Source: a virus
Length of the DNA: 44,533 bases
IMG/VR virus record: IMGVR_UViG_3300032278_004293
Location: 1-44,533 of that record
Direction: 5' to 3' (one strand)
Shown: in pieces, positions 2,993-42,585 of the stretch
Numbering within the stretch: the first letter of the stretch is position 1
How the letters are laid out: each line of letters opens with the position of its first letter
Program-made: the position numbers and the translations under genes
Notes under the pieces: generated by a model
The model's input: only the letters and a program-made list of their open reading frames with translations
What the model was told of the DNA's origin: nothing
Database searches by the model: none

Positions 2993-3027
2993 TCATCCAG
3001 CTAACCCGGCCAAAGGAGAACCACCGC

Positions 3028-13599: not shown

Positions 13600-14366
13600 G
13601 GGTCTAGCTCCGTCCAGCTGTCGTACTCGTCGGCGAAGACCTCCCGGAAATTCCATGTGAAGACGTAGCCGCGAGGGTCCCGCGGCGCCTGCATGGCCCT
13701 GGGCATGTCCAGTGCCTCGAACACGATGCTTTCGCGATCGCCGATGCTCACCATCCCCTCGAGGGTGAAAGCCGTCTCGGTCCGGATGACCGATCGCCCG
13801 GTTGTCGTGCCGCTCTCAGGGTCTGTCCATGCCACCGAACGCGCGACGGTCAGGACACGGGACGTCTCCGTGCCCTCACTGTTCATCACCTTGATCAGCT
13901 GCGACGGGCGCGCGACGACAACTCCGATCGGCAGCCCGGTCACCACGAGCGCCGGCCATCCGGAATCGGTCGTAGGCTCCCCAGAGAGCGCATAATCGCC
14001 GTCGCCAAAGAGCATTTCGGTTGCGCCGGCGGTCCACACCATTTCGGTCGCACCTTCGACCCAGGCCAGAGGTCCGTTCTTCAGATCCATGCCGGCACCC
14101 GCCAGGTGCCAGAGAGCCGGCAGGCACTCGACGCGAACCAGATGCTGTCCCCCGGCCAGCTGCCGCTTCAGCATCTCGACATAGCCAGCCCCGGACTGGT
14201 CCTCACCGACACCCGTGATCATCGCCGTGGCAAGCCTGCGCCGGCGCAATCTCGAGGACGTCCGGGCACGGCCGCCGAACACCGTGAGCGAACGGCTGAT
14301 CGGGTCGGACGTGTGGAAATCCCATCCGGTGAGGCCGACGGGCGGCCAGGCGATCACATTGGTCAT
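13590..14366 (-). CDS. Distal tail protein-like (258 aa)
   Basis: Follows the tape measure gene with an ATGA overlap and is predicted to be all-beta: MTNVIAWPPVGLTGWDFHTSDPISRS, an RRRLATAMITG strand, GGQHLVRVE, then many alternating hydrophobic strands and ADEYDSWTELDPWR at the end. In siphophages the gene right after the tape measure usually encodes the distal tail (Dit/M-like) protein that joins tube and tip. The family is inferred from position more than from motifs. Confidence 0.65.
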   Translation of the reverse strand: MTNVIAWPPVGLTGWDFHTSDPISRSLTVFGGRARTSSRLRRRRLATAMITGVGEDQSGAGYVEMLKRQLAGGQHLVRVECLPALWHLAGAGMDLKNGPLAWVEGATEMVWTAGATEMLFGDGDYALSGEPTTDSGWPALVVTGLPIGVVVARPSQLIKVMNSEGTETSRVLTVARSVAWTDPESGTTTGRSVIRTETAFTLEGMVSIGDRESIVFEALDMPRAMQAPRDPRGYVFTWNFREVFADEYDSWTELDPWR

Positions 14367-17023
14367 GCGCGCCCCGTCATACTCTTCGGCTGGGTTCGCA
14401 GGTCGCGCGTGATCTTGGAGCGCGTCGCCGCGGAGGCTTGCTGGATCATCGCCCCGGCCTCATTCCGCACGATTTCGACAACGGTGCCAGGCTCGCTGCG
14501 CACGAGAAGCTCGACAGCTCCGCCTGATGCCCTCTGCCCTTTGGTATGGTCGATGACGGTTTCCCGAGGATGAAGCATGGCCAGATAGCCACCGCGGCCG
14601 TCCAGACCGCCCGACCGCGGGCCGTCTCCGGTGTAGCCGCCACCGTCGAAGCTGAACAACCCTCTGAAGAGGGAACCGAGGAAACCACCGCTCGCGCCGC
14701 CGTTCGGTCGTTGAACCGGGAACAACGCATCGGCGAACCCCGTCGCCGCCATGTCGGCCAGGCGGTCGGCCACTTTTCCGAGCACGTTCGCGAAGATTTC
14801 ACCGGCCCCAGCACCCCGGCGCAGGTCGTCAAAGATGCCTTTGAAGGTCGTACGGGCCTCGGAGTTCAGACGCTGCATCTCGGCTTGCGTCGCGACCATG
14901 CTCTGCCGGGTCGCGTCGAGCGCCGTCTTCGCTTTCGTCATCCCTTCCGCCCATTGCTCCGGCGTGATCAGCCCCGCGCGGAGCTGCTCATCCAGCTGGC
15001 GCTGAGTTTCGGCGAAGGCGCGCTGTGCCTCGATCAGCGGGTCCATCAGCCCGAGCATGCGCTGATACTCGTTGTTCGCATTGGCAATCGCCTCCGCCCG
15101 GTCCGTCTGGGCGCGACCGGCGTCATGTGGCGCGATCGGCTGCGCACCAAGCGCCGTCATGATCGACTTGTCATTGACGTACCTCAGGCCCTCCCACTCC
15201 TGACGAAAGCCGTCCACACCTTGGCCCATCCGACGTCTGACCAGTTGCATTGCCAGCCTGTCCTGCATCGCCGGGTCGAACATCTCGCGACCGGTGAGGT
15301 TCAGCTCATTCATCAGGCTGCGGAGTGTCGTCGAAACGATCTGGTATCGGCCGACAGCGCTCGAGTTGAAGCTGTTGTCCGGATGCGCGAGCATCTGGCG
15401 CTGCAGTTCCAACACTTTGTCCAGCGACATGTTGATCAGGTTCACAGGGCCGCCGGTGTAGGCGCCGTAACCCAGCGTCTCATTGTACCCCCGACCTTTG
15501 TCGGTGCCCTCGGCATAGCCGATCAGATCGAGGATCCCGCCCTCCGCCGCCGACTGCAGCCTGGCCGGGTTGCTGGCGAACGCGTCCCACATGCTGCCGA
15601 GGCTGGCGCCCACGCGGCCCATCCACGTGAAGTCCAGCGAACTCAGCACCTGCCCGGATTTCTGCGCCCGCTCGAAGCCGTCCGCAAACAGGGATGCGTA
15701 GGCCGACAGCTTCTCCATGACGCCACCCAGGGCGTCTGCTTCCTTCCGGGTGCTGCCGATGCGGCCGGCGAACTGGTAAGCCACGTCGGCCGCCTGCACC
15801 AGCTTGTCGCGGAACCCCTCTTCAAGAGCCACACCCGCATCTTCAGCCACGCGGAGGATTTCGACCAAGCTGTCGCCAGCCCTTTTGAAATCCCGCTCAT
15901 CCAGTGCCTTGGCATAGGCAGACTGCAGCTCGCGAACCCGCGCGATCTGCTCCAGAGATGGCCCCAGCTGATCGGCAAGCTCGCCCATGTCCTGGTACCG
16001 GCCCTCGAGCGCGGCCAGCTCCTGCTCGAGTTCCGCGACCAGCTGTGCGGCGGCGGCAGCCGCCGGAGAGTTTGCCGCCTGCATGAGCTCGAGCTCACGC
16101 CGGGCCTCTTCCAGCGCGCGACGGGATGCCTCGATTTCCTCCGGCCCTGAATCGATCAGTGAAGCGGCAACGGAACCTGCCTTGTCGCCGAAGGCTTCAG
16201 CGAAACCCGCCACCATATCGTCCCCGAGGATCGCTCCAACCTTCTGCGCGGCCGAACGCGCCTCGATATCGGCGAGCTCGGCAACCAGTTCGCGAACCTG
16301 TTCCGTCACGAGGCCATAGCGCTCCTTCAGCTTGTCCAGCCCGCTTGCGCTGAGCAAAGCGATCGCGGTCTCGGCCCGGTCGATGCTCGAGGTTGCCTCG
16401 TCGATCGAAGAAGCCCACTCCTTGGCCGCCTTCTCCGCTTCCTTCAACTCTTCCTTGGTATCGAAGAGGTTGGCCACCAGCGGCAGCAGCGCGCCGGCGG
16501 CGATACCGGCGGCGATCGCAAATGCTCCGCCCATGTACATGGCGAGGTCCGGCAACTGGATTGCCAACGCACGGATCGGATCACCCGTTGCGGATGCAGA
16601 CTGAGCGACCTGGCTCAGCTGCATCGCAATCCCCCGGCTATCGAACCGCCCGCCCGCGGACGCCAGCCGATCGGCACCTTCGGCCGCGCCCAGGTAAGCG
16701 GTCCGCGCCTGCCGGATCACCGTCTCAGCCTGGGCTTGCGTGGCCACGCCCGCTTTCACTGCGCGGTTCGCGGCCTCCACGGCTTGTTCGTACCTTCGCG
16801 TCGCAGCATGGGCTGGATCGACACTCGCGCGCAGGGCATCAAAGGCCTTCTCCTCGGCGAGGACGGCCGCGGTGGCCTCTCGCGCGACGCGTACGGTGTC
16901 ATTCTCGGCATCGACGATGCGATAGATCGCCTTCACCGCCTTGTTGCTCATCCCCTCGAAGGCGGCAACGACCTGACCGTCACCCTGTGTTTCGAGCCGG
17001 ACGGCAACGCGCTTTTCAGCCAT
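14363..17023 (-). CDS. Tape measure protein with embedded lytic transglycosylase domain
   Basis: 886 aa, long helical protein that sets tail length. The N-terminal 160 residues are helical with an AENDTVRVAREA segment; a hydrophobic stretch near 175-205 (GGAFAIAAGIAAGALLPLVANLF) would enter the host membrane. Residues about 495-600 strongly resemble lambda endolysin R (GH104-type): IGYAEGTDKGRGYNETLGYG with the likely catalytic Glu505, then SAVGRYQIVSTTLR and FDPAMQDRLAMQLVRRR. A C-terminal helical region with QRAFAETQRQLDEQLRAGLI follows. The domain would help the tail pierce peptidoglycan during entry. The start overlaps the frameshifted chaperone frame by 8 nt, as in lambda-like tails. Confidence 0.9.
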   Translation of the reverse strand: MAEKRVAVRLETQGDGQVVAAFEGMSNKAVKAIYRIVDAENDTVRVAREATAAVLAEEKAFDALRASVDPAHAATRRYEQAVEAANRAVKAGVATQAQAETVIRQARTAYLGAAEGADRLASAGGRFDSRGIAMQLSQVAQSASATGDPIRALAIQLPDLAMYMGGAFAIAAGIAAGALLPLVANLFDTKEELKEAEKAAKEWASSIDEATSSIDRAETAIALLSASGLDKLKERYGLVTEQVRELVAELADIEARSAAQKVGAILGDDMVAGFAEAFGDKAGSVAASLIDSGPEEIEASRRALEEARRELELMQAANSPAAAAAAQLVAELEQELAALEGRYQDMGELADQLGPSLEQIARVRELQSAYAKALDERDFKRAGDSLVEILRVAEDAGVALEEGFRDKLVQAADVAYQFAGRIGSTRKEADALGGVMEKLSAYASLFADGFERAQKSGQVLSSLDFTWMGRVGASLGSMWDAFASNPARLQSAAEGGILDLIGYAEGTDKGRGYNETLGYGAYTGGPVNLINMSLDKVLELQRQMLAHPDNSFNSSAVGRYQIVSTTLRSLMNELNLTGREMFDPAMQDRLAMQLVRRRMGQGVDGFRQEWEGLRYVNDKSIMTALGAQPIAPHDAGRAQTDRAEAIANANNEYQRMLGLMDPLIEAQRAFAETQRQLDEQLRAGLITPEQWAEGMTKAKTALDATRQSMVATQAEMQRLNSEARTTFKGIFDDLRRGAGAGEIFANVLGKVADRLADMAATGFADALFPVQRPNGGASGGFLGSLFRGLFSFDGGGYTGDGPRSGGLDGRGGYLAMLHPRETVIDHTKGQRASGGAVELLVRSEPGTVVEIVRNEAGAMIQQASAATRSKITRDLRTQPKSMTGRA

Positions 17024-17710
17024 CAGACGCCTCGTTGATCGCCTGGACGGCGAAGTTTTCGATGATGGGAAGAAGCTCGGCGACCGCGGACGGCGCGATC
17101 TCCATGGCCGACGCCAGTGACAGGGCCGAACTCATGTCGTAGCCGAGCGCGAGAGGCGGGCCCAACCCGCCGGCGGCAAAGCGCATCTGACCGCCGAGAC
17201 GCATCGCGAGATCCCAGACCTGCCGCCCTTCCAGCGACAGGTCCCGTTCCTTCAGGGATGGGCACGCTTCGCATCTTTCCGGGCAGGATCTGCAGTACTC
17301 GCGCCCTCCGCCGAAGTGCCATTCGGCGAGGGCGCTGATGCGTTTCCCTCTTCGATGACCCGAAGACCGGGTTGCACGTAGAGCAGATGAAACGCTGTGA
17401 AGAGCGGCCAGAGGTCCAGAAGGGCGTCGATCATCGTCGGCGTCGGATCGATGGGGTTACCATCCTTGTCGCCGACACCTTCCCAGCCGACGATGGCAAG
17501 CCGAGCGATCGCCTTGTTCATCTCGACGCGGAAGTTGGAAGACAGGCCCTCCGTCTCGGCGTCTCCTTCGGCGGGGTCGGTAAGGCGTGCCAGCGCAGGA
17601 TCAGCCCAGACAGAAGCCATCAGCGTCGAATTAAGGGGGAGAACCTCCACCCGAACGTCCATCCCAAGATCGATCCAGCGCGGACCCGTGGTGATTTCCA
17701 GCCGGATCAT
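17016..17710 (-). CDS. Tail assembly chaperone, -1 frameshift fusion (GT-like, 231 aa)
   Basis: Predicted frameshift product joining the 17252-17710 frame to a second frame that ends at 17016. The first 123 codons are read normally to AAC at 17342; after a -1 slip on GGGAAAC (17342-17348) translation continues RISALAEWHFGGG and on to the 17016 stop. The added part contains a four-cysteine knuckle (CRSCPERCEAC) and the segment GRQVWDLAMRLGGQMRF, which also looks like real coding sequence in this frame. This is the standard G/GT arrangement before a tape measure gene. The extension would bind the tail tube protein or tape measure. Continuity of sensible protein on both sides supports the call. 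Confidence 0.8.
17252..17710 (-). CDS. Tail assembly chaperone, unshifted product (G-like, 152 aa)
   Basis: Short product that terminates in the normal frame. Begins MIRLEITTGPRWIDLGMDVRVEV, overlapping the tail tube stop by ATGA. Residues about 15-110 are a mixed fold; the final 30 residues (after NASAPSPNGTS) are low-complexity Ser/Ala/Lys, as expected where the real fold ends and the frameshift normally takes over. It probably coats the tape measure protein during tail assembly. Confidence 0.8.
   Translation of the reverse strand: MIRLEITTGPRWIDLGMDVRVEVLPLNSTLMASVWADPALARLTDPAEGDAETEGLSSNFRVEMNKAIARLAIVGWEGVGDKDGNPIDPTPTMIDALLDLWPLFTAFHLLYVQPGLRVIEEGNASAPSPNGTSAEGASTADPARKDAKRAHP
17301..17348 (-). 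promoter_or_regulatory. -1 programmed frameshift signal: slippery heptamer and stem-loop
   Basis: Heptamer GGGAAAC at 17342-17348 lies in the zero frame as G GGA AAC, the X XXY YYZ form used for -1 slippage; lambda G/T uses GGGAAAG. After a 6-nt spacer a stem begins: 7 bp (17329-17335 with 17301-17307) plus 7 bp (17322-17328 with 17309-17315), one bulged nucleotide at 17308 and a 6-nt loop (17316-17321). Heptamer, spacing and stem all fit a frameshift stimulator. Confidence 0.85.
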
Positions 17711-18645
17711 CAGTAGGCATCCACCGTGTTGACCAGCGTGGCGGTGACCATGGGATCCCCGCCTGCATCCTGCGACGCCCGCCCGTCGAAGGTCACCTGG
17801 ATGCCGCCCGGCCCCTCGATCATGCGCTTGGGCCGGTCGAGGAAGAGCTTCGGCACCGAGAAGGTCAGACTGTTCGTCCCGTCCGAATAGGCGAAAGTGA
17901 AAGCCGCCGAGCCGCCGGCGATCGCTTGGTCGACCAGCGCCGCCGAGGAGAAGCGCGTCACCAGGCGGACACCGAGTGACGCCATGTTGGGATCGGCACC
18001 GGCAATCAGCCCCCCGTTTCCGACGTTCTCCGCTGGCTCGAGGTTGTTGGAATAGGTGATCTCGGCCGAGACCACGTCCGCAAGTGCCGAGCCGCCCCGG
18101 GTGATGGAGCCCTGCCGCTGCAGGAACCGTTGGTACTCGAATTCGTCCGGCGTACCGGCCTGGGTGCTGGAGTTCACCGTTTCCGCCTGTCCGACAAGCC
18201 CGACGGAGAGCGACGCCCACCCCTTCCGGGCCTGCCCGAACTGCAGCCGGTCCACCATGCAGCCGGTGTGCATCATGTAGTGCGAGACCTCGGGAATTCC
18301 GGTTTCGAGAGCAAGGCTGGGAACGCTCCAGCCGCCGGAACTGAAGACGTGCGTGTAGGTGCTGCTGCCCGTGGTGGCCGGAGCTCCGAAGGCGGCTTTC
18401 AGCCATATACCTACGGCCTCGACATCCAGCGGCACCTCGATGTCGCCGTTCACGTCGAGAGCATCGAGCTGCGGTGCGAGCGGGTCGCGGCCCTGTCCGA
18501 GGACTGGATCGTCGAGCAGCTGTGCTGCGCCACCGAGCATGTTGCGGTTGAACGGCAGCGACATGAACCCGCTGCCGGGCGCCGTGCCATAGGTCGATTC
18601 GAACGCGCCGGACAGGATCGACCGGGCGCCTTGTGCGCGAGGCAT
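17710..18645 (-). CDS. Major tail tube protein (311 aa)
   Basis: Beta-rich protein directly upstream of the chaperone pair, where the tube gene is expected. It begins MPRAQGARSILSGAFESTYGT, has a central HVFSSGGWSVPSLALETG and ends with FDGRASQDAGGDPMVTATLVNTVDAY. This matches the 'phage tail tube protein' family of alphaproteobacterial siphophages; it should polymerise around the tape measure. AAGGAGA lies upstream of the ATG. No Ig-like C-terminal domain is evident. Confidence 0.85.
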   Translation of the reverse strand: MPRAQGARSILSGAFESTYGTAPGSGFMSLPFNRNMLGGAAQLLDDPVLGQGRDPLAPQLDALDVNGDIEVPLDVEAVGIWLKAAFGAPATTGSSTYTHVFSSGGWSVPSLALETGIPEVSHYMMHTGCMVDRLQFGQARKGWASLSVGLVGQAETVNSSTQAGTPDEFEYQRFLQRQGSITRGGSALADVVSAEITYSNNLEPAENVGNGGLIAGADPNMASLGVRLVTRFSSAALVDQAIAGGSAAFTFAYSDGTNSLTFSVPKLFLDRPKRMIEGPGGIQVTFDGRASQDAGGDPMVTATLVNTVDAY

Positions 18646-39428: not shown

Positions 39429-39631
39429 CGACCATCTGCGACCACCCCGAATGCGGCGCCCCGGCCAAGCGGATCGCGGCCAAGGTCAGCACCTGGCACT
39501 GCCGTCCGACATTCGACGACGAGAACATCGACGTCGAGTTCACCGAGTTCTCGGCGGACCTCTGCGAAAAGCACGCGGGCGAGCTGCTGACGTGCCTGCG
39601 CGGCATGATGACGGAGAGGGGCGGGGAATGA
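39425..39631 (+). CDS. Small zinc-binding-type protein (68 aa)
   Basis: Cys/His arrangement CDHPEC ... WHC ... DLCEKHAGELLTC suggests a treble-clef-like zinc site. ATGA overlaps on both sides link it to the methyltransferase gene that follows. Function unknown. Confidence 0.6.
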   Translation: MTTICDHPECGAPAKRIAAKVSTWHCRPTFDDENIDVEFTEFSADLCEKHAGELLTCLRGMMTERGGE

Positions 39632-41361
39632 ACCAGGCGAACCTCCTCTTCGACTTCCCGACGGCCGCGCCTGTCCAGGGGCGCCCGCTCATCATCGACA
39701 GCTTCGCCGGGGGCGGCGGTGCCAGCACCGGGATCGAGATGGCGCTCGGACGCTCGCCCGACGTGGCGATCAACCACGACGCCGAGGCGCTGGCGATGCA
39801 CGAGGTCAACCACCCGGACACCCTGCACATGCAGGCCAGTGTCTACGCGGTGGACCCGCGCGAGGTCACCGGGCGGCGACCGGTCGGGCTCATGTGGTTC
39901 AGCCCGGACTGCAAGCACCACTCGAAGGCGAAAGGCGGGCGCCCGGTCGAGAAGAACATCCGGGATCTCGCGTGGGTGGTGGTCCACTACGCCAAGCTCG
40001 TCTCGCCCGATGTCATCATGCTAGAGAACGTCGAGGAGTTTCAGGACTGGTGCCCGCTGACGCCCGACCACAAGCCGGACCTGTCCCGCAAGGGCGAGAC
40101 CTTCCGGGCGTGGGTCCGGGAACTCCGGCGCCTCGGCTACAAGGTCGAGTGGCGCGAGCTGCGCGCCTGTGACTATGGCGCCCCGACGATCCGCAAGCGG
40201 CTCTTCGTCATCGCCCGGCGTGATGGCCTGCCCATCGTCTGGCCGGAGCCGACGCACGGTGCGCCCGACAGCCCGGAGGTCATCGCCGGGACGCGGAAGC
40301 CGTGGCGCACCGCCGCCGAGATCATCGACTGGTCACTGCCCTGCCCGTCCATCTTCGACACGTCGGACGAGATCATGGCGAAGCACGGGCTGCGCGCCGT
40401 GCGCCCGCTCAAGGACGCGACCCTGCGCCGGATCGCGCGCGGCGTCATGCGCTACGTGGTCGAGGCGAAGGAGCCGTTCATCGTCTCGGTCGCGCACGGG
40501 CATTCCGGCGGGCGGCGCGAGTATCCGCTCGGCGATCCCATCGGCACGCAATCGGCGGGCGGGACGCAGCACGGTCTTGTCGTCCCCACGCTGATCCAGA
40601 CCGGCTACGGCGAGCGCCCCGGGCAGGACCCGCGCGTCCCCGGCCTCGAGAAGCCGATCGGCACGATGGTCGCGGGCGGGGCGAAGCACGCGCTGGTGGC
40701 CGCCTTCCTCGCCCAGCACAATGCCGGGGCCCCGATGGAGAACAACGCCGGCCGCGCCGCAACCGATCCGCTCTCGACACTCACCACGCGCGGGACACAG
40801 CAGCAGGTCGTGGCCGCGCACCTGATGATGATGCGGAACAGCGGGAAGCCGTGGACAGCGCCCGACGAGCCGATGCACACCGTCACCGCCGGCGGTGCCC
40901 ATCCCGCTCTGGTGGCGGCCAGCATGGTGAACCTGCGCGGCACCGCCGACGGCCAGCTCAAGGGCCTGCCGATAGACGCGCCGGTCCCGACCGTCTCCGC
41001 CGGTGGCGGGCACGCGGGCCTGGTCGCGGCCTTCCTGCAGAAATACTACGGCGCCGGGACCGGGCAGACGCCCTCCGATCCGCTCCACACCCTCGGCACC
41101 CGTGACACCTTCGGGCTGGTGACGGTCGAGGTCGACGGCGAGACCTACGCGATCGCGGACATCGGGATGCGGATGCTGACCCCGCGCGAGCAGTTCCGCG
41201 CGCAGGGCTTCCCGGACAGCTACATCATCGACCGCGGGCCCGACGGCTCGCCGATGACGAAGACGGCACAGACCCGCATGTGCGGAAATTCGGTCTGCCC
41301 GCCGCTCGCCGCCGCACTGGCCCGGGCGAACTGTGCGCATCTGGCGGAGGTCCCGGTATGA
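39628..41361 (+). CDS. DNA C5-cytosine methyltransferase with repeat-bearing recognition region (577 aa)
   Basis: Methylates cytosine in DNA. Motif I DSFAGGGGAS (about 24-34), catalytic loop WFSPDCKHHSKAKGG with Cys95 (the usual PCQ is replaced by PDC), ENV-type LENVEEF (132-138), motif VIII ACDYGAPTIRKRLFVIARR, and C-terminal motifs IX/X with LTPREQFRAQGFP and CGNSVCPPLAAALA. Between motifs VIII and IX, about residues 300-495 hold six copies of a ~38-residue unit (P..T..AGG..H.LV...L) instead of a usual short target region. No restriction enzyme is next to it, so it acts as a solitary phage enzyme, likely shielding phage DNA or affecting regulation. Confidence 0.9.
   Translation: MNQANLLFDFPTAAPVQGRPLIIDSFAGGGGASTGIEMALGRSPDVAINHDAEALAMHEVNHPDTLHMQASVYAVDPREVTGRRPVGLMWFSPDCKHHSKAKGGRPVEKNIRDLAWVVVHYAKLVSPDVIMLENVEEFQDWCPLTPDHKPDLSRKGETFRAWVRELRRLGYKVEWRELRACDYGAPTIRKRLFVIARRDGLPIVWPEPTHGAPDSPEVIAGTRKPWRTAAEIIDWSLPCPSIFDTSDEIMAKHGLRAVRPLKDATLRRIARGVMRYVVEAKEPFIVSVAHGHSGGRREYPLGDPIGTQSAGGTQHGLVVPTLIQTGYGERPGQDPRVPGLEKPIGTMVAGGAKHALVAAFLAQHNAGAPMENNAGRAATDPLSTLTTRGTQQQVVAAHLMMMRNSGKPWTAPDEPMHTVTAGGAHPALVAASMVNLRGTADGQLKGLPIDAPVPTVSAGGGHAGLVAAFLQKYYGAGTGQTPSDPLHTLGTRDTFGLVTVEVDGETYAIADIGMRMLTPREQFRAQGFPDSYIIDRGPDGSPMTKTAQTRMCGNSVCPPLAAALARANCAHLAEVPV
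40527..41110 (+). repeat. Six-fold ~38-aa repeat in the methyltransferase recognition region
   Basis: Units start at DPIGTQSAGG, KPIGTMVAGG, DPLSTLTTRG, EPMHTVTAGG, APVPTVSAGG and DPLHTLGTRD. Each has an H/Q and LV/VV a few residues later and a variable spacer. The regular design looks modular, as if units could be gained or lost to change recognition. Confidence 0.8.
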
Positions 41362-41615
41362 GCGATATCACCCCCATCTCAACCCTGCTGGCTGCCGCAT
41401 CCTCTGCCACTGCCGCCGCAACCGACATGATCGAGACGGCGCGCGACGGAGAGATCACTCCGTTCAGCAACGTGGGTTCCGGAGAAACCGCAACAGTCCT
41501 GGCCGACAGTCTCCGCCTGCTTCTTGAGGCGACGTCGGGTGATCGCGCTGACGACGATGAGGCGAACCAGCTTCTCGGCGCGCTGCAGAAGTACCTGGAG
41601 GACCAAAATGGCTGA
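41358..41615 (+). CDS. Small hypothetical protein (85 aa)
   Basis: MSDITPISTLLAAASSATAAATDMIETARDG, a central NVGSGETATVLADSLRLLLEATS and acidic C-terminus. Ala/Thr-rich helical protein with no recognised family. ATGA overlap with the methyltransferase stop; 8-nt overlap with the next gene. Confidence 0.55.
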   Translation: MSDITPISTLLAAASSATAAATDMIETARDGEITPFSNVGSGETATVLADSLRLLLEATSGDRADDDEANQLLGALQKYLEDQNG

Positions 41616-42585
41616 GAACTCCAAGATCGAATGGACCGATCACACCTTCAACCCATGGATCGGATGCACCGCGGTCAGCCCGGCCTGCGACCACTGCTAT
41701 GCCGAGAGCATGATGGACACCCGGCTGGGCCGGGTAGAATGGGGCCCGCACGGAGAGCGCAAGCGCACGAGCGAGGGCTACTGGAAGGCGCCGCACCGGT
41801 GGAACAGGATCGCAGCGGATCAGGGCGTCCGCTTCCGCGTCTTCTGCGCAAGCCTCGCCGATGTCTTCGACAACCACCGCTCGATCGAGCCGCAGTGGCG
41901 TCGCGATCTGTGGACCATGATCGAGGCGACACCGAACCTCGACTGGCTCCTGCTGACGAAGCGGCCGCAGAACGTGTCGAAGTTCGTGCTGAACCGCTGG
42001 ATGGAAGAGGGCTTCCCGGACAACGTCTGGCTCGGGATCTCGGTAGAGAACCAGGAGGAGGCGGACCGGCGCATTCCTGTGCTGCTGTCGCTTCCCGTGC
42101 CGACCACGTTCCTGAGCATGGAGCCTTTGCTCGGGCCGGTGGAAATCCCCCGCTATGTGCTTCTGCCCCGTACCGTTCGCGGCGACTGGCCCATCGGCCA
42201 TGACACGGTCGCGCGGGCTGGCCTGCATTGTGTGCGCCGCAACACCCACGGCGCCCGCTCAGTGCTCGCCGAAAACGGCACCTGGCTCGGGATCAAGCCG
42301 CACGAGTGCGAGGACGTGGACGTGTCCTGGATCATCGCCGGCGGCGAGAGCGGACCCCACGCCCGCCCGTCGAACCCGCAGTGGTTCCGCGATCTGCGCG
42401 ACCAGTGCCAGCGGGCCGACATCCCCTTCCTGTTCAAGCAATGGGGCGAGTGGGTCTCGGTCTCAGAGGTGGAGGGCCGTGGGGAGCACTTCCAGTTTCC
42501 CGATGGCTGCACGGTCCGCCGCACCGGCAAGAAGGCGGCGGGGCGAGAGCTGGACGGCAGGACGTGGGACGAGGTGCCGGGATGA
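41608..42585 (+). CDS. DUF5131 (phage Gp37/Gp68) family protein (325 aa)
   Basis: Starts MAENSKIEWTDHTFNPWIGC; cysteines at 20, 27 and 30 (CX6CX2C) are the family hallmark and resemble a metal or Fe-S cluster site. Further typical blocks: FCASLADVFDNH, WLLLTKRPQNV, VWLGISVENQEEADRRIPVLLSLP, FLSMEPLLGPVEI and WIIAGGESGPHARP with FKQWGEW near the end. The layout is reminiscent of radical-SAM enzymes, which would suit nucleotide or DNA modification, but the reaction is unknown. It sits with a methyltransferase and DUF4326 protein. Confidence 0.85.
   Translation: MAENSKIEWTDHTFNPWIGCTAVSPACDHCYAESMMDTRLGRVEWGPHGERKRTSEGYWKAPHRWNRIAADQGVRFRVFCASLADVFDNHRSIEPQWRRDLWTMIEATPNLDWLLLTKRPQNVSKFVLNRWMEEGFPDNVWLGISVENQEEADRRIPVLLSLPVPTTFLSMEPLLGPVEIPRYVLLPRTVRGDWPIGHDTVARAGLHCVRRNTHGARSVLAENGTWLGIKPHECEDVDVSWIIAGGESGPHARPSNPQWFRDLRDQCQRADIPFLFKQWGEWVSVSEVEGRGEHFQFPDGCTVRRTGKKAAGRELDGRTWDEVPG

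Follow-up and report, generated by a model that had tools for sequence, protein, structure and literature searches.

The window analysed here is a viral record of 44,533 nucleotides (IMGVR_UViG_3300032278_004293), and in it the tail assembly chaperone gene of a siphophage is, with a probability of about 0.94, read by programmed -1 ribosomal frameshifting. The locus belongs, with good support, to the lambda G/GT kind. Both the occurrence of shifting and its efficiency we infer from the anatomy of the locus, its conservation, the coding of both frames, homology and predicted folds. The same slip site and hairpin are present in well over a hundred phages and prophages, mostly alphaproteobacterial.

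Anatomy of the chaperone locus

On the minus strand the gene order is tube, chaperone, tape measure. The tail tube protein gene (17710-18645; PF18906, Phage_tube_2, 1.1e-45) lies directly upstream and the tape measure protein gene (14363-17023; matching PHROGs for tail length tape measure proteins such as phrog_8892, 1.3e-11) directly downstream, with two overlapping open reading frames between them. ORF1 (minus strand, 17252-17710, 152 aa), the start of which overlaps the stop of the tube gene by one base, represents the unshifted, G-like chaperone. As in other G/GT loci, it is a relative of known tail assembly chaperones. It matches phrog_313, 'Tail assembly chaperone' (E = 1.3e-15), as do 44 of the 46 aligned members of its family, and its AlphaFold model (pLDDT 90.4) matches many phage tail assembly chaperones in Foldseek (probability 1.0, best E 2.4e-4), among them the chaperones of Stenotrophomonas phage BUCT548, Salmonella phage 9NA, Acinetobacter phage Loki and mycobacteriophage Madruga. 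A sequence search for solved-structure relatives of ORF1 gave nothing credible.

The slippery heptamer G GGA AAC (minus strand, 17342-17348) is the single occurrence of GGGAAAC in the region and is read as GA[G GGA AAC] in the ORF1 frame; past it, the zero-frame tail of ORF1 is ASAPSPNGTSAEGASTADPARKDAKRAHP. A 6-nt spacer (minus strand, 17336-17341) leads to a putative stimulatory hairpin (minus strand, 17301-17335), in which 17335-17322 pairs with 17315-17301 to give 14 pairs; a single base bulges from the 3' arm, and the 6-nt loop is TGGCAC.

After the slip, the -1 frame (minus strand, 17016-17342) reads RISALAEW and onward for 108 codons to a TGA at 17018-17016, overlapping the tape measure gene (ATG at 17023) by 8 nt. 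This T-like extension has cysteines at positions 17, 20, 24 and 27, a CX2CX3CX2C motif that may bind metal; across relatives three of the four are invariant and one nearly so. Residues 65-106 match PF24752 (DUF7697) at 3e-14, with 53.1 bits against a gathering threshold of 27 bits. All 47 of 47 diverse homologues of the extension match DUF7697, and 14 of them match DUF1799 in addition. Its AlphaFold model has a pLDDT of 91.9, and the top Foldseek match is a 'Tape measure chaperone' of Enterobacter phage F20 (E 2e-3, probability 1.0), with others of that name from Klebsiella phage Solomon and Salmonella phage Shivani. These model-based matches are suggestive rather than conclusive. The Foldseek matches of both ORF1 and the extension are moderate (TM about 0.5-0.6), and this counts against the frameshift reading. 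For the T domain no solved-structure relatives were found by sequence, and a PDB fold search returned nothing credible.

The first-pass annotation had proposed this same layout: an in-frame GGGAAAC that differs from the lambda GGGAAAG in the last base only, a 14-bp stem with a 6-nt loop beginning 6 nt farther on, a -1 frame open for 108 codons and ending 8 nt inside the tape measure gene, and a four-cysteine knuckle. The coordinates bear it out, the bulged base being the only detail missed. Its broader statement, that every part of a G/GT element is present, also holds, as the ORF layout, a conserved in-frame heptamer, a -1 ORF lacking its own start and chaperone homology are all found.

Conservation of the slip site and hairpin

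Is the element maintained in related genomes? Protein searches of viral contigs, phage records and bacterial genomes gave 169 usable loci including the window, some of them duplicates of one contig, which reduce to 139 distinct 160-nt segments. An X XXY YYZ heptamer stands at the codon equivalent to AAC-CGC in 166 of the 169 loci (136 of the 139 segments); of the other three loci, two have bases masked at this point and the third is aligned only in part. The types are A AAA AAC (141), G GGA AAC (20), A AAA AAA (4) and A AAA AAG (1). Thus, the form in the window is a minority form, A AAA AAC is the family norm, and the heptamer is not odd within this lineage. Among 123 distinct segments, AAA at heptamer positions -3 to -1 is invariant, and the bases at -6 to -4 are either AAA (106) or GGG (17), with no intermediates. 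The triplet has switched at least five times on the protein tree, two of the switches being forced by well-supported branches. Since the zero-frame residue at this codon changes with the triplet (Lys to Gly), it is the ability to slip that has been kept. Heptamer and downstream frame are both conserved, as the first-pass annotation had expected if the element were genuine.

The 169 loci were found with patterns that cover the conserved peptide beside the slip site. For this reason a further survey of 190 genomes of one class was carried out with the DUF7697 profile alone, the slip region being unused. In eight of the nine loci recovered, A AAA AAC or G GGA AAC lies upstream with an open -1 frame; the ninth is without a heptamer and looks degenerate or unrelated. 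One of the eight (L207) has the peptide HWAWRGGG in place of EWHFGGG and a different stem sequence, and keeps a long hairpin (-31.9 kcal/mol); in another (L208) the hairpin is weak (-14.6 kcal/mol).

In the window, the hairpin has a folding energy of -28.2 kcal/mol over 47 nt. Forty-two slippery-type heptamers occur in the whole window, both strands counted, and no other is followed by as strong a fold as the one at 17348-17342; when 3000 random 47-nt stretches were folded, 0.1% did equally well. Shuffling the synonymous codons of its own -1 ORF gives z = -2.5 (p = 0.01) for the hairpin. Conservation in relatives is stronger evidence than these window-only chance statistics. The window and some relatives carry the one-base bulge and others do not, which limits fixed-register covariation; consequently, each sequence was folded against synonymous shuffles, and synonymous codons were permuted within columns between sequences. 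Over 119 distinct segments the mean hairpin z is -2.29, with 76% individually at p<=0.05. The observed mean fold of -27.29 weakens to -25.96 +/- 0.15 on column permutation, a contrast inflated by the relatedness of the sequences, and this weakening indicates that the stem arms covary. Four stem pairs are changed on both sides among 20 diverse sequences. The stem-loop is thus conserved among homologues beyond coding constraint, a few nucleotides 3' of the heptamer, as in the dnaX type of element.

In 19 of the 119 distinct segments, a zero-frame stop follows the slip directly. This is expected if the unshifted tail is dispensable, and it also means that the stem in those segments is no by-product of ORF1 coding. 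Short and long zero-frame tails require seven changes on the tree. In L016, L061, L075, L095, L137 and others, about one-sixth of distinct relatives, the zero-frame stop is one codon past the heptamer, so that the slip site is also the end of the short chaperone.

Rfam gave the hairpin no match to any described RNA family at E<=1, and the literature search found no paper describing it. A terminator or promoter was considered at this position and ruled out, no such pattern being present.

Some features of the slip region count against the frameshift reading. GGA at -15 to -13, present in most relatives, is absent from the window, where no clear Shine-Dalgarno stimulator is seen. Also, a Chelatococcus sambhunathii prophage contig (L046 and L105, both within the 166) has an extra A, A8 for A7 at approximately 2994-3001, and here ORF1 and the -1 ORF form one continuous frame; the cause could be an error of sequencing, decay of the prophage or a genuine fusion in frame.

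The proposed frameshift and its alternatives

How might the ribosome move between the two frames? Most ribosomes would reach the ORF1 stop and produce the short chaperone. A fraction would be held up by the hairpin while tRNA-Gly occupies GGA and tRNA-Asn occupies AAC. Each tRNA would then slip back by one base, to pair with GGG and AAA respectively, after which translation would continue in the -1 frame. The predicted product is ORF1 residues 1-122 fused to the 108-residue extension, with its Cys4 motif and DUF7697. By analogy with lambda (PMC5009743), the role of the short form would be to coat the tape measure, and that of the long form to recruit tail tube subunits.

A fusion could also arise if RNA polymerase gained or lost a base at the run and translation were normal. 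The A7 runs of most relatives, and the A8 of the one prophage where the frames are joined, offer a hint in this direction, as bacterial slippage is known on runs of nine A or T (PMC5009743). The window and 19 other loci carry GGGAAAC, however, with no homopolymer longer than three and with the same frames and hairpin, and the A/G triplet switching preserves dual-tRNA re-pairing rather than a homopolymer. Polymerase slippage is hardly possible on GGGAAAC, and tandem -1 slippage of tRNA-Gly and tRNA-Asn at a hairpin pause is thus the best account; the transcriptional route is very improbable. Marginally less probable again is translation of ORF2 as a separate protein from its own start codon, as annotated in the records of Synechococcus phage Sc-Yong805-1 and Nostoc phage Nsp-JY21, where it is a separate CDS. 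An internal ATG does exist in the window, at 17204, but it is the first ATG, GTG or TTG of the -1 frame, 138 nt past the slip, and the conserved RxxALAEWHFGGG sequence and the four cysteines lie upstream of it. With no start before 17204 and its most conserved residues ahead of that point, the -1 frame must be reached from ORF1, and a -1 ORF that is conserved, open and startless in this way is typical of G/GT elements. Start positions also vary between relatives, and a separate protein would leave the conserved heptamer without explanation.

Could the heptamer be there by chance, or a sequencing frameshift have split one ORF? Short motifs are common, as the number of slippery-type heptamers in the window illustrates, but independent isolates, prophages and metagenome contigs all show the heptamer at this position with the two frames in the same relation, and triplet and hairpin covary. 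The odds of either are negligible.

Frameshifting at the heptamer remains the preferred reading, and one point from the literature counts against it: in E. coli, A AAA AAC shifts far less readily than A AAA AAG (PMC5009743). A tentative proposal, put at slightly under even odds, is that a large, mainly alphaproteobacterial phage lineage has an element of its own that combines AAC-ending heptamers, an obligatory conserved hairpin and a Cys4-DUF7697 T domain, the first half of which is missing from the domain databases as gene callers start inside it. As part of this proposal, the hairpin might be what makes AAC-ending heptamers effective, given the weakness of A AAA AAC in E. coli. Were it correct, one would expect a shift efficiency and a demand on host tRNAs unlike those of the lambda model. 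The tRNA-Lys isoacceptors were also considered as the cause of AAC over AAG heptamers. Four genomes (Bradyrhizobiaceae, Xanthobacter, Ectorhizobium and Pannonibacter) yielded a CUU tRNA-Lys, but in the two Rhodobacteraceae searched UUU was the only one found, so the isoacceptors do not account for the pattern.

Relation to known systems and other features

The closest known counterparts are in the Rhodobacter phages RcOceanus, RcKemmy and RcKvothe, where a two-piece joined tail assembly chaperone CDS is already annotated. These share with the window a homologous ORF1 (42-46% identity), the -1 ORF (43%), G GGA AAC, the placement between tube and tape measure genes and a hairpin with a compensated lower stem, but they differ in stem sequence and zero-frame tail. 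A paper on R. capsulatus phages mentions that a programmed frameshift is usual in tail assembly chaperone genes (PMC8601537); the literature search found no experimental test of the joined CDS. The lambda gpG/gpGT system resembles the window in where the genes lie, in the -1 direction, in a heptamer of the form G GGA AA(N) and in the logic of short and long products (PMC5009743), whereas the window has AAC for AAG, a strong 3' hairpin and the DUF7697/Cys4 extension. G GGA AAC is also present in the tail g-t gene of the haloarchaeal virus HCTV-1 (PMC5009743), although the host is archaeal and the likeness is one of shift site, homology aside. In haloviruses, g-t shift sites of both forms, G GGA AAC and A AAA AAC, are on record (PMC5009743), and A AAA AAC has been proposed as the shift site for Loki (PMC5313236). 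In E. coli dnaX, too, a simple stem-loop downstream of the heptamer acts as stimulator (PMC5009743), but the gene is unrelated, its shifted product is the short one and it has a Shine-Dalgarno stimulator; no clear upstream stimulator of this type is seen in the window. Taken with the joined CDS of the Rhodobacter phages and the reported shift sites, the dnaX stem-loops place the window element within a known kind. The strong simple stem, which the first-pass annotation had called unusual, is instead the rule in this lineage, and simple stem-loops are familiar from dnaX.

What is new is modest: a role for DUF7697 and phrog_11212, and a conserved hairpin that Rfam does not contain. These additions leave the general view of tail assembly as it was. 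The PF24752 and phrog_11212 models hold only the C-terminal ~50 residues and are both labelled 'unknown', and the literature search found no papers on DUF7697. The present comparisons show that they represent the C-terminal half of the T domain, part of the long chaperone form, which gives them a likely function. The separate CDS calls in Sc-Yong805-1 and Nsp-JY21 illustrate how annotation can lose the first half of this domain, and the analysis suggests that many alphaproteobacterial prophage annotations miss the fused chaperone. The relatives also constitute a natural series of heptamer and hairpin variants for frameshifting studies outside E. coli. In L087 and L088 the T-domain ORF is annotated at 1965-2198 as a separate CDS from an internal start, and the conserved Cys4 part is lost.

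Other loci in the window are also of interest. The tape measure protein (14363-17023, minus strand) matches endolysin/tail-lysozyme PHROGs as well (phrog_90, 2.2e-17, residues 489-709) and may, from this sequence match, contain an embedded cell-wall enzyme domain. An integrase gene (PF00589; 43391-44533, plus strand) extends as far as one end of the record, and close to the other is a serine resolvase domain (PF00239; 1946-2677, minus strand); the record is probably that of a temperate phage or prophage that has recombinases of two types. A gene for a 636-aa DNA methyltransferase-like protein (39451-41361) is followed by a DUF5131 gene (41524-42585), both on the plus strand, opposite to the structural genes.
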